Positions 10,107 through 31,027 of a stretch of 39,273 bases of DNA are shown piece by piece. The stretch is from contig SKQS01000128.1 in assembly GCA_007118895.1 (NCBI GenBank), positions 1-39,273 of the forward strand, written 5' to 3'. The notes beneath the pieces were generated by a model. That model was given only the letters and a program-made list of their open reading frames with translations. It was not told where the DNA came from and did not search any database. Positions within the stretch are counted from its first letter, which is position 1. Every line of letters starts with the position of its first letter. Source of the stretch: Wenzhouxiangella sp. GTDB lineage: Bacteria > Pseudomonadota > Gammaproteobacteria > Xanthomonadales > Wenzhouxiangellaceae. The position numbers were made by a program, and so were the translations under genes.

Positions 10107-10279
10107 GTTTCATCCGTACCGCGGTAATCCTATAACCTAACCTTTTATGAGGCGGTTTGGAAGACGTCACGCGGATGGTTTTTGCCGCCAGGCGGCACTT
10201 GAAATGGGGCAGGAGTGCCACAATGTGCGGAGCGGGCGCAGGGGTTAAATCAACTCAGACAGCCAAGAGGTCAGGCCGA

Positions 10280-11946: not shown

Positions 11947-11949
11947 ATC

Positions 11950-13791
11950 ATGCGTAACTGGTACTCCGCAAGCGCCCTGATCGTACTCGCCGTGCTTTTT
12001 CTCGGCCTGACCATGCTGTCCGGCACGGCGCTCAAGGGTTTTCGAATCGATCTCACCGAACACCGACTCTATACGTTGAGCGACGGCACACGAAATCTGC
12101 TGGCCAACCTGGATGAGCCGATCACGCTGCATTTCTTCTTCAGTGAAGACACCAGCGGCGACTTCCCCATGGTGCGCAATTTCGCCCGCCGGGTGCAGGA
12201 GCTGCTCGATGAAATGGCGGCCCGCAGCGGCGGCAACCTGCAGGTTCGGCGCATTGATCCGCGACCGTTTTCCGAGGAGGAGGACCAGGCAGCGCGCTTT
12301 GGTCTGGAGGCCGTGCCGTTGGCGCGTGGCACCGACAGCCTGTACATGGGCATCGCCGGCACCAACCTGATCGACGGGCTGGAAGTGATTCCATTTCTGT
12401 CGCCGGCGCGCGAGGAATTTCTGGAGTACGACCTGGCGCGCATGATCTACGTGCTGAGCCTGCCCGATCGACCGCGGGTCGGCATCCTGACGAAGCTGCC
12501 GCTGGATGGCGGTTTCGACTTCCGTACCGGTCAGCGGCAGCCGGCCTGGGCAGTCTACGATCAGATCAGCCAGCTGTTCGATGTCGAGCTGCTGGAGCCG
12601 GATATCGATGTGTTGCCAGCGCCGCTCGACGTGCTGGTGCTGATCCACCCCGACGAGTTCAGCGAGGAACTGGACTATGCTGTCGACCAGTTCATGCTCG
12701 GCGGCGGGCGGGTGCTGGCCTTCATCGATCCGTTTTCCGAAACCGATCCGGTTACCGCTGCCGATGACCCCACTGCTGCACTGACTGCCGACCGCTCCTC
12801 CTACATGCCGCCCTCGTTCGCTGCCTGGGGCCTGGAAATGGAGCCTGATAGATTCGTCGCCGACCTGGGGCTGGCCCTGCAGGTCAACGTCGAACCAGGC
12901 CGACCAACACGCCATCCGGGCATCATTGGCATCGACCGCCGTCATCTGGCCGCCGATGATGTGGTCACCGGCGACCTGGAGACAATCAATGTCTCCAGTG
13001 CCGGCGCGTTCAGCCTGTCCGCCGATAGTGCGCTGGTTTTCGAGCCGCTGCTGACTTCCAGCGACCGGGCCGGGTTGCTGGATGCCGATCGCCTGCGCTT
13101 TCTCGGCGATCCATCCGAACTGGTTGCAGAGGCCACCCCGACCGGTGAGCGTTATGTCATTGCCGCCCGAATCAGCGGCGAGGCAGACACTGCCTTTCCC
13201 GATCGCAACGGGGACGATCACCTTGCCAGCGGCCTGGTCAACGCCATCGTGGTCGCCGATGCCGACCTGCTGGCTGACCGGTTCTGGGTCCAGCGCCAGC
13301 AGTTTTTCGGTTCGACCATACTCAACCCGTTTGCCGACAACGGCAGCTTCGCGATCAATGCCATCGATCACCTGATCGGAAATGCTGATTTGATCTCGGT
13401 GCGCAGCCGGGCCACGTCGGCACGGCCTTTTGACCTGGTCAACGATCTGCGACGCGAGGCCGAACGCAACCTGCGTGCCACCGAGCAGCGACTGGAGGGT
13501 GAGCTGGCCGAAACCGAGCGCCGCCTGACCGAGCTGCAGCAGGCTCGTGGAGATACCGACCTGAGCGTGCTGACGCCGGAGCAGGAGGCTGAAATCGACC
13601 GTTTCATGAGTCAGCGACTGGAGATTCGCCAGCAGCTCAGGCAGGTCCGGCGCGATCTCGACCGTGACATCGAGGCGCTGGGTAACCGTCTGAAGATCAT
13701 CAACATCGCCCTGGTGCCGGCGCTGGTTACGTTATTTGCGCTGTGGCTTGCCTGGCGGCGTCATCGTGCACTCAAGGAGGCCAAGCGATGA
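11950..13791 (+). CDS. GldG-family ABC auxiliary protein (PF09822-type)
   Basis: The product has 613 residues. An N-terminal membrane helix (about 7-26) is followed by the family motif FRIDLTEHRLYTLSDGTRNL and a large periplasmic region. That region contains two substrate-binding-like halves (for example RVGILTKLPLDG, then LIHPDEFSEELDYAVDQFML). A long coiled coil (about 500-575) precedes the C-terminal helix (about 582-602) and a basic tail. Length and order match GldG/ABC_transp_aux proteins. It lies between the permease and the DUF4340 gene. Confidence 0.88.
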   Translation: MRNWYSASALIVLAVLFLGLTMLSGTALKGFRIDLTEHRLYTLSDGTRNLLANLDEPITLHFFFSEDTSGDFPMVRNFARRVQELLDEMAARSGGNLQVRRIDPRPFSEEEDQAARFGLEAVPLARGTDSLYMGIAGTNLIDGLEVIPFLSPAREEFLEYDLARMIYVLSLPDRPRVGILTKLPLDGGFDFRTGQRQPAWAVYDQISQLFDVELLEPDIDVLPAPLDVLVLIHPDEFSEELDYAVDQFMLGGGRVLAFIDPFSETDPVTAADDPTAALTADRSSYMPPSFAAWGLEMEPDRFVADLGLALQVNVEPGRPTRHPGIIGIDRRHLAADDVVTGDLETINVSSAGAFSLSADSALVFEPLLTSSDRAGLLDADRLRFLGDPSELVAEATPTGERYVIAARISGEADTAFPDRNGDDHLASGLVNAIVVADADLLADRFWVQRQQFFGSTILNPFADNGSFAINAIDHLIGNADLISVRSRATSARPFDLVNDLRREAERNLRATEQRLEGELAETERRLTELQQARGDTDLSVLTPEQEAEIDRFMSQRLEIRQQLRQVRRDLDRDIEALGNRLKIINIALVPALVTLFALWLAWRRHRALKEAKR

Positions 13792-14825
13792 GTGCGAGGA
13801 GTCTGCTGATCCTGGTGCTGGTCACTGCGGTGATTCTCGTCATTGCTCTGAGCTGGCGCGGTGAGCGCGATACCGACGGTCTGGGTCCGCAGCCGGCGGT
13901 GCCCGGGCTGCGCGATCGGGTCAACGACATCGACCGCGTCGAGCTGCGCGGCGCCGGCGATGCATTGCTGGTCAGCCTGGTCCGCGATCGGGCACGTTGG
14001 CAGGTAACCGAGTTTCACGGCTACGAGGCCGACTTCGACCGGGTCCATGACCTGCTGCGAGGCCTTGCCGAGGCGCGGCGCCTGGAGCAGCGTACCGACA
14101 ACCCGCAGTGGTATCGACGGCTGGGGGTGGAGGATATCGCCGAGCCCGACGCTGAAGGCGTGATGGTTGCATTTCCCGGTCACGATCTGCCGGCGGTGAT
14201 TCTCGGCAACGCTGCCCCGGACTTCGGTGGTCAGTATCTGCGCGAAGCCGATCAGGCACGGAGCTGGCTTATCGACCGCGGGCTCGATGTGCCGCGAACG
14301 GCCCTGGAGTGGTTGGAGCGCAGCGTCATGGACATTCCGGCCTCCGAGATCGACGAAGTGGTGATTGTCCACCCGGACGGGGACCGGGTACGCCTGAAGC
14401 GGCTTGATCTCGACCTGGATCAACTGGTGCTGTTGGATGTGCCCGAGGGCTACGATGCCCGGCCCTGGCATCGCCTCAGGCCGGTCGCCAATGGGCTGGC
14501 CGGCGTGCGCCTGGAGAGCGTGCGCCCGCACCAAGCCGTACCCGAAGACGCCGTGCGCGCCCTGTTCACCACCATCGATCGTCTGAATTTCGTGGTCAGC
14601 GCGTTCGACGACGATGACGGCCGATGGCTGCATTTCAGCGTCAGCGCCGAAACCACCGCGCGCGAGGATGAGGAACTTGAAGAGGACGAGATCGCCTCGA
14701 CCGTGGATGCTGCTGCCGTTGACGCGCGACTGTCACCATGGCAATTTCGGGTCCCGTCTGCCAAGTTCGAGGCGCTGACCCGGCGCATGGAAGACCTCAT
14801 CGAAGAGGTCGATAGCGAATCCTGA
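13788..14825 (+). CDS. DUF4340 domain-containing membrane-anchored protein
   Basis: The product has 345 residues. A single N-terminal helix (about 4-22) anchors a periplasmic domain with the repeating DUF4340 pattern: DRVELRGAGDALLVSLVRDRARW, WLIDRGLDVP and DEVVIVHPDGDRVRL. There is an acidic segment near residues 290-305. The start has AAGGAGG 7 nt upstream and overlaps the GldG stop. DUF4340 proteins usually end Gld-type ABC operons; their role is unknown. Confidence 0.85.
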   Translation: MSARSLLILVLVTAVILVIALSWRGERDTDGLGPQPAVPGLRDRVNDIDRVELRGAGDALLVSLVRDRARWQVTEFHGYEADFDRVHDLLRGLAEARRLEQRTDNPQWYRRLGVEDIAEPDAEGVMVAFPGHDLPAVILGNAAPDFGGQYLREADQARSWLIDRGLDVPRTALEWLERSVMDIPASEIDEVVIVHPDGDRVRLKRLDLDLDQLVLLDVPEGYDARPWHRLRPVANGLAGVRLESVRPHQAVPEDAVRALFTTIDRLNFVVSAFDDDDGRWLHFSVSAETTAREDEELEEDEIASTVDAAAVDARLSPWQFRVPSAKFEALTRRMEDLIEEVDSES

Positions 14826-15824: not shown

Positions 15825-18800
15825 TCACGCTTTGGCGTCCTTGTCTGCGCTGCGGTACTCGCTGGGCGTGCATTGATAGTGTGCCTTGAAGGCCCGGGTA
15901 AATGCAGATTGTCGACGAAAACCGACCGCAAATGCGATCTGCGCAATGCGTGTATCGCTCTGGCGCAGCATCTCTGCAGCTCTTCTGAGTCGAAAGTTGC
16001 GAATGTATTCAGCCGGCGTGGTCTGGCTCAGTGTTTCCAGTCGCCGGTACAGTGACGCGCGACTGGTTCCAACCAGTGCGGCCACATCATCAATATCCAG
16101 TTCGGGATTCTCCAGCTGTTCCGTGAGCACCTGGTCGAGGCGAGTCATGAAGGTTGAAGTGATCACAGCAGCGGATGAAGGCTTTTCGCTCTCCGCGCCG
16201 GATTGTGTTCCGGACCGCTGTTCAGGCAGGGTCCGTGACAGCAGCCGTTCGATCCGGATCAGGAGTTGTTCGGCCGAGAATGGCTTTTCCAGATAGTGAT
16301 CAGCACCGGCCCGAAAGGCCCGGGCTTCCGTTTCCCTGTGCCCATGCGCGGTGCACAGGATCACCGGGGTGGTGGCAGTCTCATCGCGTTCCCGGAGCCG
16401 TTGGAGCAGCTCGAATCCATCCATCTCTGGCATTTGAGCATCGACGACGATGAGGTCGGGTCGTTCACTGCTGGCCAGCTTCTCGCCCTCCGTACCGCTC
16501 TGCGCCTGCAATACCTGGTAGCGCCCGTCAAGAATTTCGGTGATGTGGGCCCGGATCCCGGCGTTGTCGTCGACGACCAGGATCTTCGTCGCGCCGGACG
16601 CTGGCAGCACTGGAGTTTCATCAGGTTTATCGACCAGCGGAAACTCAAGCGTGAAACTGGCGCCTCCCAGGTCGCTGTCGCCAATCGTGATGGTGCCTGA
16701 GTGCTGCTCTACGATTCGGCGACACAACGCCAGTCCCAGACCCAGCCCGGGTCGATCGGTGTCGCCGCGAACGAACGGCTCGAAAAGGACTTCACGCCGA
16801 TCGGGCGCAATCCCCGGGCCGCTGTCCTCGATGACGATGGTGACATGACGACCGTAGACCGGCCTGTCAAGGCCGAGCCGCACCGAGCCGCCTCGCGGCG
16901 AGAACTTGATCGCGTTGTCGAGCACGATCGCCAGGGCTCGCTCGAGCCGGACGCTGTCGGCCTGCAGCCAGGGCGGGTCATCAAGCGCATGAATTCTTTT
17001 CTGAATCCGGACCGATTTCTCTTCGGCCGCGGGCGAGGCTGTTTCCATCACCCGTTCGAGCAGAGGCGACAGCGACACCGGCCGAGTTTCATCGGACCGG
17101 ATATATCCCAGCTGCTCAAGCTCCAGGATCTGGTCGATCAACGACTGCATCTGCTCGGCACTTCGGCGCATCCGCTTCAGCTGTGCAGAGTCGGGCGGCT
17201 CGTTCTGGTCGCGCAGGGGACCGAGAACCAGCGTCAATTGGGTTCTCAACTCGTGGCTGATGGCCAGAAACAGCTGATGACGCCGATTGGCGGTCGAGCG
17301 GATACTGCTCGCCTGAGCCTTGACCGTGGTCAGGGCCTGGCGCAGATCGGTGGTGCGCTGATCAACCGTGCGTTCCAGTCGAACCACCTGGGTGTGTTCG
17401 CGCCAGAACAGACCAGCCAGCAGTAGCAGCCCGCCCAGCCCCAGTATCAGCCAGTAGCCGCCGCGCTCGGTCAGTCGGGGAGGCACCTCGAATGCCAGCG
17501 TGGTCGCCTCGGCCGGCCATTGGCCGTCGTGATAGCGCGCCTGAACCTGCAGTCGATAGCTGCCCGGCGACAGCGACTCGAAAGCCAGTTCGGTCTGATT
17601 GCCGACGAAGTGCCATGCAGCCTGTTCGCCCAGGCGGTAACGAAACTGCACTGCGTCTTTGCCGCGCAGCGCCGTGGCCTCAAGTCGGGTCCGGAGCAGG
17701 CGCGCCTCGGGCGGCAGCCTGAGTTGTTCCCCTTCCGAATGGCCGAGCGGCGTGATGTTTGCCCTCAGCAGATGTTCCATCGCCTGCAGACGGTCGGGGT
17801 GGATCACCACGACTCCGTGTTGATTGGGAAACCAGATGCGGCCATCGGCCGTGCGCGTGCCGGCCTGGTGCAGGTTGCCGTTGCCCTCGTTGCCCGGCAT
17901 GCCGTCACGACTGTCGAAGCGGCGGGTGGTCAGGTTTTCTGCCCGGCCCTCGAAGAAATCGATCAGGTGTTCGATGTAGACGGCATAGATTCCGTTATTG
18001 GTATTGACCCACAGCCGGCCGTAGTCGTCCTTGATCATACGGTGGACGCTGTGGTGCGGCAGCCCGTCGGCGACCGAGATGCAGCGCTCCACGCCCTGAC
18101 CCGGATCAAGCAGGCACATGTCGCGGTCTTCCAGTCCGACCAGCAACCGATGATCGGCCAGCGCGTGCAGGCTGCGGACTGAGTTACTGGCCAGCCCGTT
18201 GCCGCTGTCGGCGATAACAGATAGCGGTTCCTGCGGAGAGTCGATGCTGGCCATCAGTACGCCATCGCTCATGGTCCCGAACGCCAGGTGCTGGTTGTCG
18301 ATGTTGACAGCCGTGCGTACGAAGGCCGCCGACAGTGGTTGGTCGGACCACTGGCCGTCGGCGGCACGCCGGTAAAGCCCGCGGTCCGATCCCATCCAGA
18401 TGGCATCGCCGCGGTCGCGCATCAGCAGTCGAATTTCCAGCTGGGGCTCGGGCTGGCCACCGGCGCAGCTGCCATCGCTTTGCAGCCGGCACAGGCCACT
18501 GCCGCCGATCAGCAGATCTTCGCCATCGACCACGGCGCCCAGTGGCAGAAACCACATCAGCCGTTCCCATGTCGCCGCGGCGGGGTCGTGGTGATACAGG
18601 GCGAACTGGTTGCCGATCAGCAGACCGTCGCCGTGTTCGGTTACCAGGTAAGTGTTGGGGTCGTCAAGACAGTCGCCTTGCCGGCAGGCGCTGTACATCA
18701 CCGGTTCGGTCAGGCGCTTCAGTCCGCCCCGCGAGGTGGCCAGCCAGACCTGGCCGTAGCGATCAAAGACAAAGTCGTTGATGGGATGCTCACCGACATG

Positions 18801-19763
18801 GACCAGCTCACCGTCGCGGTAAAGCCGCGTGCCGTGGTTGATCCACTGTTGCCCCCGGGCATCGGTTCTGGTCAGAACGAAGTGATGGAAGTCGTACGGC
18901 GCGGATTCGATTGGCACAACGCCGCGTTGGTCAATGCGCATCAGGCGACCGAATGGGGGCGTGCCGTTCATCGTCGTCAGCCAGCCCTCGGCCGTCCAGG
19001 ACATCCGTCTTCGATCCCACTGGACTTGCGGGATGGGAATGGTTTGGGAGCCATTCCGGCCATTCAGATCGATCAGTTCAAGACCGGACGGTGTCAGCAC
19101 GCCCAATTGACCCTGGGGATTGTTGGCCAGTGCCAGCGCCGGCCCCTCCAGCGCGTCAATCAAGCGGCGGCTGCGATTGTCGGCCGGGTAATAGGCGATC
19201 ACATCGGAGCGGTCGGTAGCAACGAAAAGCCGATCGCCAGCCGGGTCGGGGTGGATTAGCTCAAGGCTATCGAAAGCGGCGATCTGACGGGCTCCGGTAC
19301 CGGGCTCCCAGCGCATCAGCCGCTCTCCCTGCGCGTACCACAACCCGTCCTGGTCGACGCGCAGATTTTCGCGGCTGGTCCGACCGATCCCCTGGTAGCC
19401 GCCCTGCTTGCTGAACGTGCCAAAATCGCCGTTCTCGAAGCCAATGACGAGCCTGCCGGGGACGCTGATGACCCGGCTGAGTCGGTTGCCGGGCATGGCC
19501 GGCTTCGAATCGGCGTTGAAGTGGGAAAACCCGAATCCATCGAAGCGGGCCAGTCCGTCATGGGTGCCCAGCCATAGCGCGCCCTTGTCGTCGACGGCCA
19601 GCGAGGTGACCGTATCCACCGGCAGGCCATCGGCGGCCAGCCACTGGCCGGAGACGATATGACTGGGCGCCGGGGCTGCCAGGCTCATCGATGCGCCTGC
19701 TGCCAGCCAGGCCAGCAGCAGCGACAGTCGCGACAGCAGTTGTAAAGGTGTTGGCTGAAACAA
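15825..19763 (-). CDS. Hybrid two-component system protein (propeller sensor, kinase, receiver, AraC output)
   Basis: The product has 1,312 residues. In order: signal peptide (about 1-29); two-component-regulator beta-propeller repeats (about 35-640, e.g. GALWLGTHDGLARFD, GRLWVNTNNGIYAV, GRIWFPNQHGVVVI); Y_Y_Y domain (about 690-760); membrane helix (about 766-786); HisKA with phospho-acceptor His837 (ISHELRT); HATPase (N box DNAIKFSP, G box DSGPGIAP and GLGLGLAL); receiver with Asp1108 (VVDAQMPEMDG) and Lys in EKPF; and an AraC-type DNA-binding domain (about 1205-1305). One chain thus links periplasmic sensing to transcription. The start appears to be TTG at 19763, the only one that keeps the signal peptide. 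No good ribosome site precedes it, and a mobile element begins 17 bp upstream. It is divergent from the giant DUF11 gene. Confidence 0.92.
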   Translation of the reverse strand: MFQPTPLQLLSRLSLLLAWLAAGASMSLAAPAPSHIVSGQWLAADGLPVDTVTSLAVDDKGALWLGTHDGLARFDGFGFSHFNADSKPAMPGNRLSRVISVPGRLVIGFENGDFGTFSKQGGYQGIGRTSRENLRVDQDGLWYAQGERLMRWEPGTGARQIAAFDSLELIHPDPAGDRLFVATDRSDVIAYYPADNRSRRLIDALEGPALALANNPQGQLGVLTPSGLELIDLNGRNGSQTIPIPQVQWDRRRMSWTAEGWLTTMNGTPPFGRLMRIDQRGVVPIESAPYDFHHFVLTRTDARGQQWINHGTRLYRDGELVHVGEHPINDFVFDRYGQVWLATSRGGLKRLTEPVMYSACRQGDCLDDPNTYLVTEHGDGLLIGNQFALYHHDPAAATWERLMWFLPLGAVVDGEDLLIGGSGLCRLQSDGSCAGGQPEPQLEIRLLMRDRGDAIWMGSDRGLYRRAADGQWSDQPLSAAFVRTAVNIDNQHLAFGTMSDGVLMASIDSPQEPLSVIADSGNGLASNSVRSLHALADHRLLVGLEDRDMCLLDPGQGVERCISVADGLPHHSVHRMIKDDYGRLWVNTNNGIYAVYIEHLIDFFEGRAENLTTRRFDSRDGMPGNEGNGNLHQAGTRTADGRIWFPNQHGVVVIHPDRLQAMEHLLRANITPLGHSEGEQLRLPPEARLLRTRLEATALRGKDAVQFRYRLGEQAAWHFVGNQTELAFESLSPGSYRLQVQARYHDGQWPAEATTLAFEVPPRLTERGGYWLILGLGGLLLLAGLFWREHTQVVRLERTVDQRTTDLRQALTTVKAQASSIRSTANRRHQLFLAISHELRTQLTLVLGPLRDQNEPPDSAQLKRMRRSAEQMQSLIDQILELEQLGYIRSDETRPVSLSPLLERVMETASPAAEEKSVRIQKRIHALDDPPWLQADSVRLERALAIVLDNAIKFSPRGGSVRLGLDRPVYGRHVTIVIEDSGPGIAPDRREVLFEPFVRGDTDRPGLGLGLALCRRIVEQHSGTITIGDSDLGGASFTLEFPLVDKPDETPVLPASGATKILVVDDNAGIRAHITEILDGRYQVLQAQSGTEGEKLASSERPDLIVVDAQMPEMDGFELLQRLRERDETATTPVILCTAHGHRETEARAFRAGADHYLEKPFSAEQLLIRIERLLSRTLPEQRSGTQSGAESEKPSSAAVITSTFMTRLDQVLTEQLENPELDIDDVAALVGTSRASLYRRLETLSQTTPAEYIRNFRLRRAAEMLRQSDTRIAQIAFAVGFRRQSAFTRAFKAHYQCTPSEYRSADKDAKA

Positions 19764-20134: not shown

Positions 20135-23100
20135 ATGAGTCGACTGAGTGGTGAATGGGGGGCACGCATCCAGCGTGGCCACGATGGTAATGGGTTGCAG
20201 GGCAGGGGGCACGAACAACGCCGGCTCCGCGGTCGATTCAGGACGCTCCTGCTGGCCGCTGCCGCATTGTTGCTGGCAGGGCAGGGTGCCGCGCAGGACC
20301 CGAACATTACCGAAACGGTGCCCGCCGAGTCCTTTCTGGGCGAGCAGTTTTGCTTCACCACGGAATTTACCAATGACGGCGCCACCGGCTTCGGCCCCTA
20401 CCTGCAGCTGGTGCTGCCGCCGGAGCTGATACTTGATTCAGCCCAGGTCTACGGTGCTGCGCTGGGCGGCGGGCTTCAGTTTATTGGCACTTTCCCGGTC
20501 GATCCCGATCCCGGCGTCACCGAAACCGAGCTGACCGACCCGCGCATCAATCAGCCGGTACTGGGTCCGGAGGGCTTTAGCCTTTACCTGCTGGTGCTGC
20601 CGGTCGGCTCGCTGGTTGACGGCGCGCCGCCGCTGCCGGTCGATATCTGTCTGACCATCGACCCCGATGCGGTGGTTGGCGAGCCGCTGCCGATCAGCCT
20701 GACGCCGGTCTACCAATTCGGCGATACCGCCACCGGCGCCAATGGCCCGATCATCGGTGATTTGGTCGAGCAGGAGGTGGTACCCACCGTACTGCTGTTT
20801 GAAAAGACCAACAACGCCCCGGAAAGCGAGCGGCCGCCTGGGGCTACCTGGCCCTACACCTACACGCTGACGGTCGATATCGCCAACACCGCGACCATCA
20901 ACCCGATCACCATTACGGATGAGCTACCGGGTGATTTCCTGTACGAGATCGGCTCGGCGGACATCGTCGCCGGGGACAACTGCTTGATCAGCCAGGAACC
21001 CGATGGCCTTTCCCCGGGTGGCACGCTGATCGTGACTTGCGGTGAGAACGTTGGGACCACAGGCGGTGGCGATATCGTCATCACCTACTCTGGCCACATC
21101 GTCGACATTCTGGATGAGACGACCTGTGCTACCAGCCCGGTTCTGAACGACGCCTCGGTGGAGGCGACCTATGTCGACCAGGGCGGCACGCCCATTCCGC
21201 TACCGCCGGTGTTCGACGACAGCCTGGTCACGGCCAAGCATGTCGCGCTGCAGAAATCGGCCTCGCCCGGCCAGCTGATTCCCGGGAATACGGTGACCTA
21301 CACCCTGGCCGGCCAGGTCACTGATTTCGGTGATGTGTCCGAGCTGGTGATTACCGACGTGCTGTCCGACGGATTGGAGTTCATTGGTACCAGCGTCACC
21401 GTCAACATTGGCGGCACCCCGGTCACGGTGGCGCCTGATGTCACCATCAATCCCAACGGCACGACCACCATCGTGCTCGAGATTTCCGACGCCTACTTCG
21501 CCCAGACTCCTGCGACCCAGATCGATGCCAGTACCGCCCTGAGCATCAGCTACCAGGCCGTGGTGCTGCAGGAGTACCGCGAAACCAACGCACCAGTACT
21601 GGCCGCCGACAGCCTGCCCAATTCGGTGATCGCCGACTACGACATGGTCCAGGGTGCTCTGGCCTGTGAAGAGGACAGCAGCGCGAGTATTGGCATTGTT
21701 CCGGTAGAAGTCATCAAGTCCATTGTCGACCCGCAACCGTTCTACGAGCCGGGAGACCTGGTGCAGTTCCGCCTGCGCCTGGACGTGCCGTCTGGCGATA
21801 CCCGCGACATTATCTTTACCGACTTCCTGCCGCTGCCGGTGCTGCAGGTTGGCGATGTCGATCTCACCTTCAGCCTGGATTTAAACGACTGCCCAGCCTC
21901 GGCCGGCATCTGCAGGGGACCGAATGACACGCTGGGCCTGGTGCCAGACTCGATTACCGCCGATCCCGCGCTAAACGCCATCCAGATCGAGTGGCAGGAC
22001 ATCGACACCACCTCGGGCCAGATCATCGAGGTCGACCTGTACACCGTCGTGACCGATGATCCCTTTCCCGACGGCCTGTTCCTGACCAATATCTTCCAGG
22101 CGCAAACCTCCAACACCCCCGGCGATGTAGCGGTGGGTACCGGCCCGGTCCAGATCCAGGTCGGCGCGCCGGACCTGGTGATGACCAAGGGCGTGCTGGC
22201 CACCGACGGCGACGGGGTGATCGATCCGCCACCGTCCAGCCTGCCGGTGAACGGCAATATCAGCGGCGTCGAGGCCAGTGACGAAATCACTTTCCAGCTG
22301 ACCATCGAGAACATCGGTGCATCGCCGGCCTTCGAGGTAACCATCCTCGATGATCCGCCGGCCGGGCTGATCGGCTGTACGCTGGATACCGTGGTCAACG
22401 GCGACGGCATCGTGCTGGCCACCACCGGCGACCTGTTCGATATCAATGATCCGCTGGTGCTGACCGATCCGCTGCCCGGACGCACCGACCCGACGGGTCC
22501 GCCGTTTGGCGCCGAGACCGCGTTGGTGACTTTCACCTGCACCGTCGATCAGAGTGTGCAGCCGGAGCAGCTGCTGACCAACTTCGCTACCGGCGCCTAC
22601 ACCTCTCAGCCTGGCGGCCCCCAGTTCCCCGGGATCGAAGATGAAGCCGATATCGGCGTGGCCTCGGTCGAGACGGAAAAGTCGCTGGTCGCCACCTCCG
22701 AGGCGCATACCAGCGATACCGCCAGCCCGCCACGGGTGGCGATTGGCGAAATCGTGCGCTACCGCCTGGCCACCCGCATTCCGCAAGGCACCATGCCCAA
22801 CCTGCAGATCGAGGACTTGCTGCCGGCCGGCCTGCGCTTCTTCGATGACGATACGGCCACCCTGGCCTTTGTTTCGGCCAGCGGCGGCAACGTCAGCTCG
22901 TCCACCTTGAGCGGTGCTGGCCTCAACGTTGCCGGCACTTCTCCCAACGTGACCCCGACCTTCGTCATTCCGGGCTCGGCGATCAGCCCGGCCAGCTTCG
23001 GCAGCGGCACCAACCCGGTATTCAGCCTAGGCACTGTGGTCAACGAAGAAAACAATGACACCCCGGAGTGGGTGGTCATCGAGTTCAACGCCCTGGTGCT

Positions 23101-26100
23101 CAACGCCGGCAGCGCCGGAAACAACCGCAACAACCGGTTCAGAGTGCTGATGGACGGGGAACAGATTGGACCGCAGTCCAACCAGGTCCAGGTCCGGCTG
23201 GTCGAGCCGGCGATCAATATCGTCAAGAATGCCGACCCGACGAGTGGTCAGGCCGGCACCCTGGTCGATTACACGGTCACCCTGTCGGTGCTCACCGGCG
23301 AAAACCGTGCAGATGCCTTCGATGTGTTGCTGACCGACACCCTGCCGGCCCTGGCGCAGCTGGTACCGGGCAGTGTCTCGGTGGCGACCAATGCCGCCTG
23401 CAGCAGCCCCGGCATTACCGACAACACGGCCGGCAATACCGTCGAGCTGCTGTTTGATCAGCTGCCGACCGGATGCGTGGTTACCGTCGACTACCAGGCG
23501 ACCCTGACCATCGACGTGATTCCGGGCACCACGGTAAACAACACTGCCAACCTGGCCTGGACCAGCCTGCCTGGTACAGGCACCGATCCCAACCCCACCG
23601 ACTCGGTCACCCCGGGCGACAGTGGCGATCCGGATGGCGAGCGGACCTACTCCGGCAGCAATGGCGCCCAGGTCACGATTGATTCCGTGGCGCCGGCCAA
23701 GTCAATTGTCACTACCTCGGAAGCGCATACCAGTGGCAATAATCTGGCCATCGGTGAGCTGGTGACCTACCGCCTGGCGGTTCAACTGCCGCAGGGCACC
23801 TCGCCGGACTTTGCCGTGATCGACCAGCTTGATCCCGGCCTGGCGTTCCAGGCCGGCAGTGCACGCCTGGCTTTCGTGGCCAACGACGGCGGCATCAGCT
23901 CCAGTGATCCGGCGATCGGTACCGGCCCGCAGATTACCGGCGACAGCCCGGCGGTCAGCCCCACCTTCGTCATCCCGGCGGCCAACATCATCGCCACCGG
24001 CGACCCCCAGACCGAAAGCACGACCGTGCGCTTCGAGCTGGGCACGTTGACCAATGCCGATGATGATGCCGATGCCGAATTCGTGGTCATCGAATTCGAC
24101 GCTCTTCTGCTCAACATCGCCGGCAACGTCGCTGGCGTGACTCGCAACAACAGCTTCACCGTCGAGATCGGCGGCACGCAGAACGGCCCGGTTTCCAACA
24201 CCCAGCCGGTGGTGGTAGTCGAGCCCAGCCTGGTCGGGCTGGACAAGAGCGCTGACCCCGACAGCGGTGATGCCGGCGACCTGATCGACTTCAGCGTCGA
24301 GTTCAACGTGGCCTCCGGCGCCAATAACGTCGCCGCCTTCGATGTCATTCTGGCCGATACTCTGCCGGCCCAGATGGCGCTGGATCTGACCTCGATCAGC
24401 GTGACGGCCACCGCTTGCGGGCCGCTCCCGGTCGAGGACGACCAGTCCAGCGGCAACAGCGTGCTGCTCGAGTTTGCCGTGCTGCCGCCAGGCTGCCAGA
24501 TCGAAGTCAACTACACTGCCGAGCTGCTGGTCGCGGTCACGCCGGGACAGGTGCTGACCAATACCGCCAACCTGACCTGGACCAGCTTGCCGGGCGCCGG
24601 CACGGACACTCCGGGTGCGCCGGGCGATGTCGACGGCGAGCGCACCGGCGACGGTGGCGTCAACAGCTACTTCGACAGCGACGATGCCGATGTGACCATC
24701 GATGCGGTCACCCTGGCCAAGACCGTGGTTGACACCTCCAATCCGTTCACCGGCGATGATGAAGTCCGGCCGGGCGTGGATGACCTGGCGATCGGCGAGA
24801 CCGCCACCTTCCATATCACGGCTACCATTCCTGAAGGCACAACGCCCGAGGTGATCATTACCGACACCGTGCCGTATACCAACGGCGTGATGGAAGTGGT
24901 CAGTGCCCAGGTGATCAGCGTTGGCAGCAATCTCAGCCCTGAGAATGATCCGCCCATCATCACCATTTCCGACAACCAGCTCGGCGACGGCATCGATGAC
25001 ACCGTGGTGTTCAATTTCGGTGAAGTGATCAATCCTCCCGGTGGTCCGGGCGGGGCAGCCAGCCAGATCACCGTCGAGGTGGTCGCGCTGGTGCTTGACC
25101 TGCCGGCCAATACCAGTGGTGATCAGCTGACCAACACTGCGCTGGTTCAGTTCGGACCTGGATTGAGTGGTTCGGCCAGCGCCGGCGTGGATATCGTCGA
25201 GCCGTTTTTGAACCTGACCAAGACCGGTGACATCACCCAGGGCGATGCCGGTGACCTGGTGACCTTTACCCTGGAACTCCGCCATACCTCGGCCTCGACC
25301 GCGGACGCACATGATGTGTCCATCGTCGACAACCTGCCGGCCGGTCTGGTGCTGGTGGCTGGCTCCCTGCAGTCGATCAGCGGCCCGGCGCCGACTTCAC
25401 TGACCGAGCCGGGCAACGGCATCGAGGTGGTCTGGGATGTGTTCGAGCGTGGTGAAGTCGCCGAAATTCAATTCCAGGCGACCCTGGCGATCGGCGTGCA
25501 GCCGGCCGAAGTGGTAACCAACACCAGCCAGGCTGCCTGGAGCTCGATGCCGGGCCTGCCGCCCGAGCAGCGTGTCTATGGCGACAGCGACGGACACAGC
25601 ATTACCATCACCGAGCCGGGCGTGGTCAAGACGATCATTAATACCTCCAACCCGGATACCGGCAGCGACCAGTTCGGCCCCGAGGTCGATCTGACCATTG
25701 GCGAGTCGGTGACCTACCAGATCACTGTGACCTTCCCGGAAGGCACCAGCGAAGAGGTGGTCGTGCGCGACCAGCTGCCCACCGGCAGCTCCATCCTTGA
25801 GCTGGTTTCAGCCGAACTGGTCTTTATCGGCGCCAATCTGTCCGGCGCGGGCCTGAGCCTGGGTGATCCGGGCGTGGCCAGCGACAGCAATAGCGATGGA
25901 TTCGATGACCGCGTGCAGTGGAACCTGGGCACCATCGTCAACGACCCCGATGGCGTGGTTGACGAAGACGACACCCTGGTGTTCGAGGTGGTTGCCGTGG
26001 TGGTCGATCAGCCGGTCAACCAGAGTGGTGTGGTCGAGCAGGTCAATACCGCTACGCTCAATACCGCAACGGTCGGGCCGATCTCCGGCACGGTGGCCAT

Positions 26101-29100
26101 CGACATCGTCGCCCCGAGGCTTCTGATCGACAAGGCGGTGACTGATCCCGCCGACGGCTTTGTCGAAGCCGATCAGCTGGTTACCAACACCCTGACGATC
26201 CGGCACGCGACCTCGTCACCGGCTTCGACCGCGCCGGCCTACAACGTGACCATCACCGACACCCTGCCGCAGCCGGGTGTGAGCTGGGAGGATGATGCGA
26301 CCGTGGTCAGCGACTGTCCGGGGCTGAACGTCAATTCCGGCGCGGCGCCCGTGATCGAATTCAGCTTCGACCAGTTCAACCTGGACGATGGGCCGGCCGA
26401 CAACGGCGTGTGCACGATCAGCTACCAGGTCAGAACCGACCTGACCGTACAGCCCAACCAGTCGTTTACCAATACGGCCAGCATGGCTTATGACTCCATG
26501 CCGGTGTTCGTGGCCGGCCAGACCCGGCGTCTGACCGATGCCGACTCGGCCGAGATCACGGTGATCGCGCCGGCGCTGGTCAAGGTTTCGCTGCTGACCA
26601 GCCTGGACGATACCGGCTCCAGCCAGCACGACCCGGCGCTGTTTGACCTGGCGATCGGCGAGGAGATCACCTATCAGATCACCCTGATCCTGCCAGAGGG
26701 CCTGACCGTCGATGCCGTTGTCACCGACACCATGCCGCTGGACGGCGCCACGACGCTGCTCGAGGCGGTCGGCGCCAACGTGGTCAGTACTGGCGGAAAT
26801 ATCTCGACCACGCTGCCTGGCACACCGGTGTTCAGTGATGTCTCCGGCGATGGCGTCAACGATACCGTGACCTTCAACTTCGGCGACATCACCAACACGC
26901 CTGATGGCGTCAGCGATGAAAACGACCGCATCGTGCTCAACGTGGTCGGTCGGGTTCGCGACGTGCCGTCGAATGTCGATTCCGATGTGTTGGTCAACCT
27001 CGCCGAGTTCGATTTTGCCACCGGCAACCTGAGCGATACCGCCGATGCCGAGATCGTTGAGCCGGACCTGGCCTTGAGCAAGTCCATGGGCCCGATCGTC
27101 AACGGCGCCGTGCAGGTCACCCTGACAGTGACCAATACCGGCACCGCGCCGGCCTACGACATCAGCGTTTCCGATGTGCTCGATGAGTCGGTGTGGGATG
27201 TATCCGCGCTGTCAACGGTATCGGTCAGCACCGGCTTCTCGCTGAACGTGGTGCCGGGCCCCGGCGCCGGTGAGCAGACCGTGCTGTTCGAGACCAATCC
27301 GGGCGCGACGCCGCCAGGCTTTATTCCGGTCGGCAACGCGGTGACCGCGGTGTTTACGGTGCCGCTGGCCCAGCTGCCGCCTGTGCCCAACCCGGTGGTC
27401 AACCTCGCCGATCTCGACGATGCCTGCTCACTGCCCGGCGGTTGCGCCCCCGGCGGCAATGGCCGAACCCAGCCGCCTGACCAGGACGACGCTCAGATCG
27501 GCATCCCAGACCTGGTGCTGGAAAAGACCGCTGCGCTGGAAGTCGATGCCGATGGCTCCGGGGATGTATCGCCCGGCGACACGCTGCGCTACACCCTGGT
27601 GCTGACCAATATCGGCGCCGCCACGGCTACCGGCGTGGTGATCACCGATGCGCCCGATGCCTTGACCACCCTGGTCAATGGCTCGGTCACCACGACCCAG
27701 GGCAGCATCGTTACCGGCAACAACCCGGGTGATGCCACCATCGAGGTCGATATCGGCTCCGTGACAGCCAGTGGCTCCGTGACCATCACCTACGATGTGG
27801 TACTGGCCAACCCCTTCCCGGCTGGCGTGACTGAAGTTGTCAACCAGGCGCTGGTCAACTCCACCGAGCTGCCGCCGGGCGTCAGTGATGACCCCGATAC
27901 CCCGACCCCGGATGACGAGACGGTGGTGCCGGTCAACGCCGAACCTGATCTGACCATTGTCAAGAGCGATGGCGGCACTACCACCACGGCCGGCGGCACC
28001 ATTATCTATGTGCTGCAGTACGAGAATGTCGGCAATCAGGACGCCACCGGGGTGTTCATTACCGACACCGTGCCCGATCACACCAGCTTCGATCCGACCA
28101 ACAGCAGTGCCGGCTGGAGCTGTGTGCCCGATAACAGCGCCGGCAGTCTGTGCACGATCACTATCGGTGACCTGGATGCCGGAGATGGCGGCTCGTTCAA
28201 CTTCGCCGTGATCGTCGACAACCCGCTGCCGGCCGGCGTTGACCAGATCGACAACCTGGCGACCATCAGCGATGACGGCGCCAATTCCGACGAGCCGATT
28301 ACCGACACCGACGACGAGTCCACGCCGGTGGTCGCCGAGCCGGCGCTGTTCATCACCAAGAGCGATGGCGGCGTGACCGCTGTGCCGGGTGATGTTGTGG
28401 TCTACACCCTGAACTACGGCAATAACGGCGATCAGGACGCCACCGGCGTGTTCATCACCGACACCGTGCCCGATCACACCAGTTTCAACCCGGCCGCCAG
28501 CACCACCGGCTGGAGCTGTGTGCCCGACAACAGTGCCGGTAGCCTGTGCACGATTTCCATCGGCGATCTGGACGTGGGCGATACCGGTTCGGTGACGTTT
28601 GCGGTGACCGTGGACAATCCGGTACCGGCCGGCGTTGATCAGATCGACAACCTGGCCACCATCAGTGATGATGGCGCCAACTCCGACGATCCGATTACGG
28701 ACTCCGACGACGAGGTCACGCCGGTGATCGCCCAGCCCGCGCTGTCGATCAACAAGGACGACGGTGGGGTAACGGCCGAGCCTGGCGATGTGGTGGTTTA
28801 CACCCTGACCTTCGCCAATACCGGCAACCAGGATGCCACCGGGGTGTTCATTACCGACACCGTGCCGGATCACACCAGCTTCGACCCGGCCAGCAGCAGC
28901 GCCGGCTGGAGCTGCGTGCCTGACAGCAGTGCCGGCAGTGTGTGCACTATTCTGATCGGCGATCTGGATGCCGGCGACGGCGGTTCGGTCAGCTTCGCGG
29001 TGACGGTGGACAACCCGCTGCCGACCGGTGTGACCGAGATCTTCAACATCGCCACCATCAGTGATGACGGTGCCAACTCCGACGAGCCGATCACCGATTC

Positions 29101-31027
29101 CGACGGTGACAACACGCCGGTTGACGCCCAGCCAGAGCTGTTCATCACCAAGGACGACGGTGGCGTGACCGTCGAGCCAGGCGATGTCGTGGTCTACACA
29201 CTGAGCTATGGCAATACCGGTAACCAGGATGCCACCGGGGTGTTCATCACCGACACCGTGCCGGATCACACCAGCTTTGACCCGGCCGCTAGCAGCGCCG
29301 GCTGGAGCTGTATGCCCGACAACAGCGCCGGTAGCCTGTGCACGATCACTATCGGTGACCTGGATGCCGGCGACGGTGGTTCGGTCAACTTCGCTGTGAT
29401 CGTCGACAACCCGCTTCCGGCCGGCGTTGACCAGATCGACAACCTGGCAACCATCAGCGATGACGGTGCCAACTCCGACGAGCCGATCACCGACTCCGAC
29501 GACGAGTCCACGCCGGTTGATGCCGTGCCCGACCTGACTATCACCAAGAGTGATCAGGGCGTAACGGCCGAGCCGGGCTCCACCGTGATCTATCTGCTCA
29601 GCTACGAGAACGTCGGCAACCAGGACGCCACTGGCGTGGTGATCACCGAGACGGTACCCGACAACACCAGCTTCGCGGCCGGCGACAGCAGCCCGGGCTG
29701 GGTGTGTGTGCCCGATGGCAACGCCGGCAGCACCTGCACGCTGGAAATCGGACCGCTGGCTGCCGGATCCGGGGTGCAGACCGCGTTGTTTGCGGTGACC
29801 GTCGACGATCCGCTGCCGCTGGATGTCGAGGAACTCGTCAACCTGGTCAGCATTGCCGACGATGGTGAGAACGGCGACGATCCGACGCCGGACAACAACA
29901 GCGACAATGAGACCACGCCGGTGGAGATCGACCCGGCGATGGAGCTGACCAAGCAGCTGGTTGAACCGGTGCCCGATCCGATCCTGGCTGGCAGTATCCT
30001 GTTGTTCGAGGTTACTGCCACCAATACCGGCAACATGACCCTGACCAATGTGGTGGTCAGCGACGATCTGATTACGCCCGACGAGATCACCTGTTTCAGC
30101 GTCGCTCCCGGCGATACCTGTGTGCTGAGCGGTCAGTACGTGGTGACCCAGGACGACATGAACGACGGGCAGGTCGTCAACAACGCCACCGCCAACAGCG
30201 ATCAGACCGATGAGGAGGATGCCGATCTGACCGTGCCGATCGAGCAGGATCCGGCCATCGAACTGACCAAGGCGGCCGACACCGAAGGGCCGGTTGCCGC
30301 TGGTGAAGAGATCGGTTACACGATCACGGTGACCAATACCGGCAACGTCACGCTGTTCGACGTTGACGTCGACGACTCGCTGATCCCGATCGATTGCGTG
30401 CCGGCAACACCGGTGGATCTGGATCCGCAGGAGCAGATCATCTGCACCGGCAGCTACGAGGTCACCCAGGACGATATCGACTTGGGCGAGGCCATCGTCA
30501 ACGTGGCAACGGCGAGCGGCACCGATCCGAACGACGAAATAGTCGATGACGACGACGGTACCGAGACACCGGTCGAAGACGCCGATCCGGCCATTGAGCT
30601 GGTCAAGGAGGCCAATCTTATAGACCAGAACAACAATGGCTTCGCCGATCCGGGTGAAACCATCGAGTACACCCTGACGGCAACCAACACCGGAAACGTG
30701 ACCCTGACTGATGTCATCGTGATTGATTCGCTGATCAGCATTGACTGCGTGCCGGCCATTCCCGCCGTGCTGGCGCCGGGCGAGCAGGTTATCTGTACCG
30801 GCGAATACGAGGTGACGGTCGCCGATATCGGCAGCCAGATCATCAACTTCGCGACGGTCAGCGGCCAGGCGCCGGACAGCCAGATTGTCGACGATGCCGA
30901 CCAGACTGCAACCACTGCCATTGCGCCGATCAACGTGCCCGTGGGTGGACCAGCTGGCTGGATTGTCCTGATGCTGATGTTGATGCTGATGGCCGGTCGC
31001 CAGCTGGCGTCTCGCCGCAGTCACTGA
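20135..31027 (+). CDS. Giant secreted DUF11 / isopeptide-domain repeat surface protein
   Basis: The product has 3,630 residues. There is an unusually long basic n-region (1-35), then a signal peptide core (36-50, cleavage near AAQ). About twenty immunoglobulin-like DUF11 modules follow. Each opens with a Lys strand (xxLxK[SG]) and closes with an Asn strand (NTA/NLA), as in isopeptide-forming fimbrial domains. Residues about 850-2400 alternate two module types (one with K-S-[IL]-V-x-T-S and P-x-G-T, one with E-P-x-L) in five pairs. Residues 2602-3264 are five near-identical units of about 132 residues. Three more DUF11 modules follow. The end is a sorting-like tail: PVGGPAGW, helix about 3608-3621, then a basic RRSH terminus, similar in layout to IPTL-CTERM. 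It is rich in Asp/Thr/Val and poor in Lys and Cys. It is probably an extracellular stalk or adhesin; ligand unknown. Confidence 0.88.
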   Translation: MSRLSGEWGARIQRGHDGNGLQGRGHEQRRLRGRFRTLLLAAAALLLAGQGAAQDPNITETVPAESFLGEQFCFTTEFTNDGATGFGPYLQLVLPPELILDSAQVYGAALGGGLQFIGTFPVDPDPGVTETELTDPRINQPVLGPEGFSLYLLVLPVGSLVDGAPPLPVDICLTIDPDAVVGEPLPISLTPVYQFGDTATGANGPIIGDLVEQEVVPTVLLFEKTNNAPESERPPGATWPYTYTLTVDIANTATINPITITDELPGDFLYEIGSADIVAGDNCLISQEPDGLSPGGTLIVTCGENVGTTGGGDIVITYSGHIVDILDETTCATSPVLNDASVEATYVDQGGTPIPLPPVFDDSLVTAKHVALQKSASPGQLIPGNTVTYTLAGQVTDFGDVSELVITDVLSDGLEFIGTSVTVNIGGTPVTVAPDVTINPNGTTTIVLEISDAYFAQTPATQIDASTALSISYQAVVLQEYRETNAPVLAADSLPNSVIADYDMVQGALACEEDSSASIGIVPVEVIKSIVDPQPFYEPGDLVQFRLRLDVPSGDTRDIIFTDFLPLPVLQVGDVDLTFSLDLNDCPASAGICRGPNDTLGLVPDSITADPALNAIQIEWQDIDTTSGQIIEVDLYTVVTDDPFPDGLFLTNIFQAQTSNTPGDVAVGTGPVQIQVGAPDLVMTKGVLATDGDGVIDPPPSSLPVNGNISGVEASDEITFQLTIENIGASPAFEVTILDDPPAGLIGCTLDTVVNGDGIVLATTGDLFDINDPLVLTDPLPGRTDPTGPPFGAETALVTFTCTVDQSVQPEQLLTNFATGAYTSQPGGPQFPGIEDEADIGVASVETEKSLVATSEAHTSDTASPPRVAIGEIVRYRLATRIPQGTMPNLQIEDLLPAGLRFFDDDTATLAFVSASGGNVSSSTLSGAGLNVAGTSPNVTPTFVIPGSAISPASFGSGTNPVFSLGTVVNEENNDTPEWVVIEFNALVLNAGSAGNNRNNRFRVLMDGEQIGPQSNQVQVRLVEPAINIVKNADPTSGQAGTLVDYTVTLSVLTGENRADAFDVLLTDTLPALAQLVPGSVSVATNAACSSPGITDNTAGNTVELLFDQLPTGCVVTVDYQATLTIDVIPGTTVNNTANLAWTSLPGTGTDPNPTDSVTPGDSGDPDGERTYSGSNGAQVTIDSVAPAKSIVTTSEAHTSGNNLAIGELVTYRLAVQLPQGTSPDFAVIDQLDPGLAFQAGSARLAFVANDGGISSSDPAIGTGPQITGDSPAVSPTFVIPAANIIATGDPQTESTTVRFELGTLTNADDDADAEFVVIEFDALLLNIAGNVAGVTRNNSFTVEIGGTQNGPVSNTQPVVVVEPSLVGLDKSADPDSGDAGDLIDFSVEFNVASGANNVAAFDVILADTLPAQMALDLTSISVTATACGPLPVEDDQSSGNSVLLEFAVLPPGCQIEVNYTAELLVAVTPGQVLTNTANLTWTSLPGAGTDTPGAPGDVDGERTGDGGVNSYFDSDDADVTIDAVTLAKTVVDTSNPFTGDDEVRPGVDDLAIGETATFHITATIPEGTTPEVIITDTVPYTNGVMEVVSAQVISVGSNLSPENDPPIITISDNQLGDGIDDTVVFNFGEVINPPGGPGGAASQITVEVVALVLDLPANTSGDQLTNTALVQFGPGLSGSASAGVDIVEPFLNLTKTGDITQGDAGDLVTFTLELRHTSASTADAHDVSIVDNLPAGLVLVAGSLQSISGPAPTSLTEPGNGIEVVWDVFERGEVAEIQFQATLAIGVQPAEVVTNTSQAAWSSMPGLPPEQRVYGDSDGHSITITEPGVVKTIINTSNPDTGSDQFGPEVDLTIGESVTYQITVTFPEGTSEEVVVRDQLPTGSSILELVSAELVFIGANLSGAGLSLGDPGVASDSNSDGFDDRVQWNLGTIVNDPDGVVDEDDTLVFEVVAVVVDQPVNQSGVVEQVNTATLNTATVGPISGTVAIDIVAPRLLIDKAVTDPADGFVEADQLVTNTLTIRHATSSPASTAPAYNVTITDTLPQPGVSWEDDATVVSDCPGLNVNSGAAPVIEFSFDQFNLDDGPADNGVCTISYQVRTDLTVQPNQSFTNTASMAYDSMPVFVAGQTRRLTDADSAEITVIAPALVKVSLLTSLDDTGSSQHDPALFDLAIGEEITYQITLILPEGLTVDAVVTDTMPLDGATTLLEAVGANVVSTGGNISTTLPGTPVFSDVSGDGVNDTVTFNFGDITNTPDGVSDENDRIVLNVVGRVRDVPSNVDSDVLVNLAEFDFATGNLSDTADAEIVEPDLALSKSMGPIVNGAVQVTLTVTNTGTAPAYDISVSDVLDESVWDVSALSTVSVSTGFSLNVVPGPGAGEQTVLFETNPGATPPGFIPVGNAVTAVFTVPLAQLPPVPNPVVNLADLDDACSLPGGCAPGGNGRTQPPDQDDAQIGIPDLVLEKTAALEVDADGSGDVSPGDTLRYTLVLTNIGAATATGVVITDAPDALTTLVNGSVTTTQGSIVTGNNPGDATIEVDIGSVTASGSVTITYDVVLANPFPAGVTEVVNQALVNSTELPPGVSDDPDTPTPDDETVVPVNAEPDLTIVKSDGGTTTTAGGTIIYVLQYENVGNQDATGVFITDTVPDHTSFDPTNSSAGWSCVPDNSAGSLCTITIGDLDAGDGGSFNFAVIVDNPLPAGVDQIDNLATISDDGANSDEPITDTDDESTPVVAEPALFITKSDGGVTAVPGDVVVYTLNYGNNGDQDATGVFITDTVPDHTSFNPAASTTGWSCVPDNSAGSLCTISIGDLDVGDTGSVTFAVTVDNPVPAGVDQIDNLATISDDGANSDDPITDSDDEVTPVIAQPALSINKDDGGVTAEPGDVVVYTLTFANTGNQDATGVFITDTVPDHTSFDPASSSAGWSCVPDSSAGSVCTILIGDLDAGDGGSVSFAVTVDNPLPTGVTEIFNIATISDDGANSDEPITDSDGDNTPVDAQPELFITKDDGGVTVEPGDVVVYTLSYGNTGNQDATGVFITDTVPDHTSFDPAASSAGWSCMPDNSAGSLCTITIGDLDAGDGGSVNFAVIVDNPLPAGVDQIDNLATISDDGANSDEPITDSDDESTPVDAVPDLTITKSDQGVTAEPGSTVIYLLSYENVGNQDATGVVITETVPDNTSFAAGDSSPGWVCVPDGNAGSTCTLEIGPLAAGSGVQTALFAVTVDDPLPLDVEELVNLVSIADDGENGDDPTPDNNSDNETTPVEIDPAMELTKQLVEPVPDPILAGSILLFEVTATNTGNMTLTNVVVSDDLITPDEITCFSVAPGDTCVLSGQYVVTQDDMNDGQVVNNATANSDQTDEEDADLTVPIEQDPAIELTKAADTEGPVAAGEEIGYTITVTNTGNVTLFDVDVDDSLIPIDCVPATPVDLDPQEQIICTGSYEVTQDDIDLGEAIVNVATASGTDPNDEIVDDDDGTETPVEDADPAIELVKEANLIDQNNNGFADPGETIEYTLTATNTGNVTLTDVIVIDSLISIDCVPAIPAVLAPGEQVICTGEYEVTVADIGSQIINFATVSGQAPDSQIVDDADQTATTAIAPINVPVGGPAGWIVLMLMLMLMAGRQLASRRSH
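27938..29926 (+). repeat. Five tandem 396-bp coding repeats inside the giant gene
   Basis: Units start at 27938, 28334, 28730, 29126 and 29522. The shared codon for the first Val of VFITDTVPDHTSF is at 28052, 28448, 28844, 29240 and (as VVITETVPDNTSF) 29636, an exact 396-bp period. The last unit is 9 bp longer. Units 1-4 are nearly identical in protein but carry many synonymous differences, so the amplification is not brand new. Each unit has two Cys (WSC...LC) and an acidic DDGANSDEPIT linker. Confidence 0.9.

Follow-up and report, generated by a model that had tools for sequence, protein, structure and literature searches.

A putative hook-type attachment fibre of Wenzhouxiangella with a GhpA-type head and Lys/Asp/Asn modules

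An open reading frame (ORF) on the forward strand of Wenzhouxiangella sp. contig SKQS01000128.1 (assembly GCA_007118895.1; the 39,273-nt stretch analysed is called the window) starts with ATG at position 20135, ends at 31027 and encodes 3630 amino acids (aa) plus stop. What might a protein of this length do for a Gram-negative bacterium? The frame is a real open one, and its product, hereafter the window protein, is acidic (366 Asp, 164 Glu, 24 Lys, and 52 Arg) and was cut into 24 immunoglobulin-like (Ig-like) modules, M0–M23. A sequence-only reading of this DNA had proposed about twenty modules with intramolecular Lys-Asn isopeptide bonds; it was right about the modules and missed the relation to GhpA, which says more about the purpose of the fibre. 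We consider it reasonably probable that the protein belongs to the GhpA family as a gammaproteobacterial member and serves a Wenzhouxiangellaceae bacterium as an attachment fibre, hook-tipped and locked by isopeptide bonds. In it, two things known separately come together, DUF11 domains with isopeptide bonds and the grappling hooks of bacteria; if such hooks are covalently locked, this would explain how a cell in motion can be held by a thread only one or a few Ig domains across.

A GhpA-type head

Homology was computed directly. Comparison of the N-terminal 1,130 residues with the PDB by phmmer retrieved GhpA (9FLP) at E 4.4e-108, in a colinear match of window protein residues ~56–1154 with GhpA residues 28–1107. 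GhpA was likewise found with a profile built from the window protein and its eight orthologs (nine sequences; E 1.4e-206) and with a profile of M0–M1 (E 1.7e-71), and it came first (E 1.5e-24) when the PDB was searched with the module profile, EbpB being second and 9IFR third. The window protein has the homologous N-terminal head expected of a GhpA-family member. As a control of equal length we used the next 1,126 residues (M7–M13, all of them modules with the Lys/Asp/Asn triad described below), which found nothing in the PDB at E ≤ 1; therefore, the GhpA match is not a general DUF11 effect. For a second control we took residues 1–2,000 of a DUF11 protein encoded on contig C112 of the same genome (with three full triads in this part), and GhpA was again not retrieved at E ≤ 1. 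This second control counts for less, since a phmmer search of the PDB with all 3,630 residues of the window protein also came up empty, a miss for which composition bias is our guess. In the printed alignment, the GhpA domains facing M1, M3, and M4 have retained the full triad, and the printed stretch of the one facing M5 shows Lys and Asp; the domain facing M2 has His, Phe, and His, all three triad residues being gone together.

GhpA of Aureispira sp. CCB-QB1 was reportedly studied by Lien and colleagues in 2024, the work comprising PDB 9FLP and seven more entries. It shares with the window protein the colinear first ~1,100 residues, the Cys pair of M0 and the triads at M1, M3, and M4, but consists of 5,898 aa, and its domain matching M2 has no triad. 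Moreover, GhpA is described as a type IX secretion system (T9SS) substrate of a predator equipped with a type VI secretion system (T6SS) (PMC11205867), whereas the window protein has an IPTL-like tail and a T6SS sheath gene was not found in its genome. A second reported GhpA homologue, GhlA of Litorilinea aerophila (Chloroflexota), was seen as filaments of ~180 nm with a hook at the end and is described as a string of DUF11 beads (PMC13319060). By this description it resembles the window protein in its DUF11 beads; unlike the latter, GhlA counts 6,596 aa and 49 DUF11 domains, has a three-stranded stem, is said to be without a signal peptide and comes from another phylum (PMC13319060).

The alternative that survives best, unlikely in our judgement, is an ordinary single-chain fibrillar adhesin comparable to B9T28_05395 of Acinetobacter silvestris, in which a stalk of CLIPPER domains would carry the GhpA-like N-terminus as its adhesive end and no multi-chain hook would form. 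CLIPPER is the new name of DUF11, CLIPPER_2 that of DUF7507; the two families often alternate in tandem, and CLIPPER domains are described as routinely forming the stalks of fibrillar adhesins, which are elongated monomeric proteins (PMC12617251). In agreement with such an adhesin, the stem past ~1,140 residues is not GhpA-like. On the other hand, the match to GhpA is colinear over about seven modules and not limited to isolated domains, and hooks have been seen from the second, Chloroflexota homologue (PMC13319060). As for B9T28_05395, it resembles the window protein in the domain family, the columns of the bonded Lys and Asn, the fit of the M12 model at 1.8 Å and its Gram-negative origin, but it is a 2,129-residue adhesin with a CshA-like head and an OmpA-like anchor, for which no GhpA head is reported.

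In the literature, searched with the primary GhpA paper outside the search, 'isopeptide' and 'grappling hook' co-occur only in work on archaeal filaments, as far as the texts retrieved go, and GhpA with grappling hook gives only PMC13319060. The main text of this paper is without 'isopeptide' and 'sortase', and that of PMC12617251 without 'grappling' and 'Aureispira'. No paper joining Wenzhouxiangella and DUF11 was found, and the query for lysine poverty and isopeptides returned none with 'intramolecular isopeptide' among the matches listed.

Lys/Asp/Asn modules and their predicted fold

Several curated models match the window protein over their own cut-offs, namely Pfam DUF11 (15 stretches), DUF7507 (9), DUF7619 (6), and DUF7927 (5) and NCBIfam TIGR04226, 'isopeptide-forming domain' (8). 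In the module alignment, Lys, Asp, and Asn occupy three of the five nearly invariant columns, with Lys in 23 of the 24 modules, Asp in 22 plus one Glu (M20), and Asn in 23; M0 has none of the three. In the head the triads are K224/D262/N338 (M1), K374/D408/N496 (M2), K528/D563/N652 (M3), and K685/D739/N816 (M4). The sequence-only reading had named the lack of a catalytic acid as a reason to abandon the isopeptide idea; an Asp, in one case Glu, is present in all 23 Lys-bearing modules. Furthermore, 23 of the 24 lysines of the whole protein are triad lysines, so that every lysine but one sits at a putative weld site. The chance of at least 22 of 24 lysines falling on 23 preset sites (P about 5e-54) gives a scale only, the sites having been chosen after viewing.

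Crystallography has revealed an isopeptide bond within a DUF11 domain from an adhesin of a Gram-negative bacterium (PMC12617251, PDB 9IFR). The alignment columns of the module Lys and Asn are also those of the bonded Lys and Asn in 9IFR, and Lys, Asp/Glu, and Asn are found at the bond positions in 23 of the 24 modules; the Asp of 9IFR in the acid column is residue 44 of the chain, which is 749 by the offset of Lys715/Asn806, while the paper prints 748. The triads and the fold match to 9IFR (see below) support the proposed Lys-Asn modules in kind, and the proposal is a further example of a phenomenon already described for DUF11 in the text of PMC12617251.

Conservation was computed from an alignment of the window protein with its eight orthologs (34–60% identical), using eleven modules (M1–M6 and M9–M13; M7 and M8, a gap in most orthologs, and M14–M23 were left out) and counting invariance among the sequences with a letter at the column. 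Thirty-one of the 33 triad columns are invariant, as compared to 213 of the 1831 other columns. The difference persists residue by residue, since Asp is invariant in 11/11 triad columns vs. 15/157 other Asp columns, and Asn in 10/11 vs. 7/80. The two variable triad columns are the Lys (to His) and the Asn (to Asp) of M12, both in a single ortholog (G031). The Asn of M2 was set at 496 after this alignment had shown it to be invariant; with the initial choice, 485, the counts are 30/33 vs. 214/1831.

AlphaFold2 models were obtained for M11–M12 (alignment of 39 sequences) and M0–M1 (alignment of 30 sequences), with mean predicted local distance difference test (pLDDT) values of 95.6 and 93.1, respectively; the fold was thus computed for four modules counting M0, the triad modules among them being M1, M11, and M12. 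In these three, the first strand of the module carries the Lys and a late strand the Asn, with the Asp at the end of a middle strand or close to it. In the numbering of the M11–M12 model, K10 is in strand 7–15, D57 in 48–58, and N149 in 147–154, while K178 is in strand 174–182, D220 in 213–221, and N291 in 288–298; all 39 sequences share K10, D57, N149, and D220, and nearly all of them K178 and N291. The two Cys of M0 (73, 172) are invariant in the 30 sequences. M1 and M12, a B-type module, show the CnaA-like fold: by VIA-align, M12 superimposes on 9IFR with Z 14.1 (1.8 Å, 119 residues) and M1 with Z 13.1 (2.1 Å, 117 residues). The M11–M12 pair lies on the antigen I/II C-domains of 2wza (Z 12.9, 5.0 Å, 253 residues), whose title states two isopeptide bonds. 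GhpA was not among the 50 best structural matches listed for the models, VIA aligning chains only up to 3,000 residues. Integrin leg chains, which top the match lists with a root-mean-square deviation >11 Å, were taken as tandem Ig domains only.

CnaA-like folds with Z 12–14 to the models also occur in Gram-positive CnaA-type pilin domains (RrgB, BcpA, and EbpB) and in the antigen I/II C-domains of SspB and SpaP; unlike the Gram-negative window protein, these are Gram-positive subunits or adhesins. The CnaA-type structures other than 2wza presumably contain isopeptide bonds as well. Such pilins and adhesins are polymerised by sortase or anchored through LPxTG, a pattern absent from the last 60 residues of the window protein.

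Could the modules be spacers without cross-links, the triad being a structural motif? A homologue from Paraglaciecola polaris, in which the profile puts none of 16 lysines at the site in 9 domains, suggests that the Lys may be dispensable for the fold. Against this stand the near-invariance of the three residues, the position of 23 of 24 lysines, the precedent of 9IFR, and the joint losses, i.e., that of Lys and Asn in one ortholog module and that of all three residues in the GhpA domain matching M2, so that we regard spacers as very improbable.

The occupancy of the bond site was also counted across the relatives. With the ordinary profile, the Lys column holds Lys in 916 of 917 domains and the Asn column Asn in 909, a count biased by the trimming of rows without Lys (all three columns were filled in 917 of 1,315 domains; four duplicate contigs and identical rows were dropped). 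Masking the triad in the model gives Lys in 489, Asp/Glu in 536, and Asn in 487 of 543 domains, the other 710 of 1,253 domains lacking a letter in at least one of the three columns. The Lys-Asn association in the masked model is not significant (P 0.055) and several of the apparent losses are misalignments, e.g., the window protein's own M5; therefore, joint loss comes down to the two single cases, M12 of G031 and the GhpA domain matching M2.

Outside the bond site, lysine has a median of 0.36% at 68 loci, vs. 2.3% in neighbouring ORFs (the longest non-overlapping ones, not curated genes). We rejected this scarcity as a sign of cross-linking, since seven other DUF11 proteins of the same genome are equally lysine-poor (0.30–0.88% overall), and low lysine thus belongs to these secreted proteins in general. 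What appears to be special is the location of the remaining lysines. In 80 proteins with at least seven profile domains, the profile puts 957 of 2,060 lysines past residue 60 at the bond site, ranging from 0/16 to 21/24 per protein; the count is a lower bound for the window protein (true value 23) and leaves out four duplicate loci and one real ortholog (L035, 21 lysines). The lower end of the range is the P. polaris protein (L093), which has a GhpA-type head (360 bits) and is perhaps a natural relative without welds. The seven own-genome DUF11 frames (L037–L043, on contigs C112, C144, C210, C154, C16, C114, and C126) include one of 4,530 residues and have triads in some cases only.

Stem, C-terminal ends and the proposed fibre

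A contig scan with a single sequence gave no relative; with an alignment as the query, 192 candidates encoded one, of which the best 80 were kept, corresponding to 75 distinct loci. The stem varies among the relatives: the 132-type unit is present in 1 to 11 copies in seven proteins, by a rough motif count which in G016 also includes the start of M1 and in G003 misses one unit. The M7–M8 pair is a gap in six of the eight orthologs, while the head is kept wherever the gene is present. In the same class, a 7,459-residue open frame (G215:C233:17564-18556), twice the size of the window protein, carries a GhpA-type head.

Among these loci are 66 GhpA-headed proteins, 19 of them cut by a contig end. 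By a loose pattern, the other 47 end in an IPTL-like tail (25, the window protein included), a sortase-type motif (10), LPxTG (1) or something else (11); four duplicate contigs were dropped from this count and some near-identical pairs remain. The four sortase-type ends tested all match Pfam Sortase (E 1e-18 to 1e-23). All ten such loci bear Chloroflexota-type labels (Anaerolinea, Levilinea, Chloroflexi etc.), and binning errors do not explain them, since one is from the isolate Levilinea saccharolytica. In four of these proteins (L089, L096, L108, and L118, labelled Levilinea or Anaerolineales/Anaerolineaceae) a PF04203 sortase domain is fused within the protein's own C-terminal 240 residues, and a fibre with its own sortase is odd. 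The LPxTG tail (L122) is a pattern match only, named by neither Pfam nor NCBIfam, in a metagenome-assembled genome (MAG) labelled Nitriliruptoraceae, which are actinobacteria. The TIGR04174 cut-off is passed by two of seven ortholog tails (G001 and G009) and by a Marinicella relative, one paralog tail lying below it; the window tail resembles a degenerate IPTL-CTERM-type anchor. Two probable binning errors call for caution with the phylum labels of MAG loci: in the pair L087 and L098, a 'Bacteroidetes' MAG protein has the same length and a near-identical composition as one from Anaerolineae, and a 3.3 kb 'Nealsonbacteria' contig (L049) encodes a protein 63% identical to the window protein.

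IPTL tails pair with exosortase H. Exosortase was found in 18 of 41 genomes, the own genome being one of the 41, and in 6 of the 10 that match the protein. Two genomes with IPTL-type ortholog tails, G004 (tail below the cut-off) and G009 (over it), are 99% complete and exosortase was found in neither; either another enzyme handles the tail or the tail is a membrane anchor only.

Since the C-terminal ends are of known anchor types, the C-terminus probably faces the cell and the N-terminal head is distal. We propose the following picture. The N-terminal ~1,100 residues would form a conserved distal head and the remainder a stem of Ig-like modules, beads gained and lost so that their number differs between species, with the C-terminal tail holding the protein at the cell. 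Each of 23 modules would close a Lys-Asn isopeptide bond across its first and late strands, helped by the Asp; these welds would keep the beads from unfolding and yield a covalently locked rod resistant to proteases and pulling. Its length may be roughly 90 nm, from 24 modules at ~3.7 nm per domain (180 nm and 49 domains as given in PMC13319060). Several chains probably bundle into a hook-tipped filament, which would attach the cell to other cells or surfaces.

Several findings speak against such a fibre. M5–M6 alone do not retrieve GhpA by phmmer, so that, taken by itself, the homology of the head holds strongly no further than about M4 (M5–M6 still align with GhpA inside longer queries and profiles), and beyond ~1,110–1,140 residues no module matches GhpA significantly. 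The head is patchy, being present at E ≤ 1e-120 in 7 of 43 family genomes (in one more, G001, the rest of the gene lies on a contig that stops before the head), while a class-wide spread of 274 genomes gave 6 matches at E ≤ 0.001, three of them, the own one included, over most of the head. TIGR04174 is not among the matches of the window tail at E ≤ 1, the tail is below every NCBIfam sorting cut-off, and the own genome (288 contigs, 95% complete) yielded no exosortase. We see no path through the outer membrane, and the neighbouring genes are uninformative; surface display is therefore an assumption. Finally, among ten flanking proteins of six orthologs there is no second copy of the hybrid regulator encoded beside the gene (Table 1), and the scanned neighbours do not recur.

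T9SS is described as unique to the Bacteroidetes-Chlorobi-Fibrobacteres group (PMC12421860); its SprA_N family was not found in the own genome, the model matching no control genome either. A weapon of predation acting with a T6SS, as in the ixotrophy of Aureispira, is suggested by the GhpA homology only and is hardly credible, since a search for the sheath family VipB (PF05943) found it in none of the 10 genomes matching the protein, the own one among them, vs. 6 of the other 31. As an attachment fibre, the protein would extend hook-type proteins past T9SS/T6SS predators to Gammaproteobacteria in which no T6SS was detected.

Judging by the variety of ends, the head may have been paired with several anchoring systems. 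T9SS substrates, too, are held by their C-terminus. Tentatively, and with somewhat less conviction than we give to the fibre itself, hook heads could be a mobile isopeptide-locked attachment module of several phyla, joined in each to the lineage's own anchor (T9SS in Bacteroidota, IPTL-CTERM in Gammaproteobacteria, a fused sortase domain in Chloroflexota, LPxTG in one actinobacterium) and owing its strength to one weld per bead.

Module architecture and gene neighbourhood

The features of the locus are collected in Table 1. Translation and module identities bear out the coordinates, length, alternation and repeat block that had been read from the sequence. The A and B modules alternate with mean identities of 34% (A-A), 36% (B-B), and 19% (A-B), and M4 is also B-like, giving five B/A pairs. 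These pairs had been placed before the 132-residue block; the pairs are there, and M14 and M15 lie between them and the block, which is followed by three compact DUF7507-type modules. M16–M19 are mutually 73–84% identical and M20 is a diverged copy; a single 132-residue repeat used as the query gave chance-looking matches only. That the protein is secreted, as had been proposed, agrees with the signal-like stretch of the leader as read by eye. The first ~30 residues of the leader look unconserved and the ortholog proteins have similar hydrophobic stretches ahead of the conserved part; the true start may be further inside.

Table 1. Features of the hook-type gene and its divergent neighbour (positions in the window)
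Feature	Coordinates	Strand	Basis or remark
Divergent hybrid two-component regulator (propeller, Y_Y_Y, HisKA, HATPase, receiver, AraC helix-turn-helix)	15825..19763	-	Domain matches
N-terminal leader, 54 residues	20135..20296	+	Hydrophobic Sec-type signal stretch, judged by eye
M0, N-terminal Ig-like domain without triad, start of the GhpA-type head	20297..20788	+	Alignments, model
M1–M4, triad modules, remainder of the best-supported GhpA-colinear head	20789..22663	+	Alignment, phmmer
M5A to M13A, alternating A and B modules, triad in each	22664..27064	+	Module alignment
M14–M15, two DUF11-type modules with triads	27065..27946	+	Module division
M16–M20, DUF11 repeats of 132–135 residues (stem)	27947..29935	+	M20 with Glu replacing Asp
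M21–M23, compact DUF7507 (CLIPPER_2) modules with triads	29936..30922	+	Pfam
C-terminal tail: short VPV(GGPAGW), hydrophobic stretch, Arg-rich end	30923..31024	+	Below every curated cut-off

The divergent hybrid regulator is separated from the hook-type gene by 371 bp and possibly regulates it. In the ortholog flanks we found one CHASE2-type sensor kinase upstream, different TPR proteins in two cases and a second DUF11 protein in one. About 5 kb from the hook-type gene, the window carries an ATP-binding cassette (ABC) transporter cluster (ABC_tran, ABC2_membrane, and ABC_transp_aux plus DUF7088) and a DUF4340 protein (10157-14825, forward strand). The parts of this cluster are GldA/GldF/GldG-like, and it is not among the ten ortholog-flank proteins scanned.
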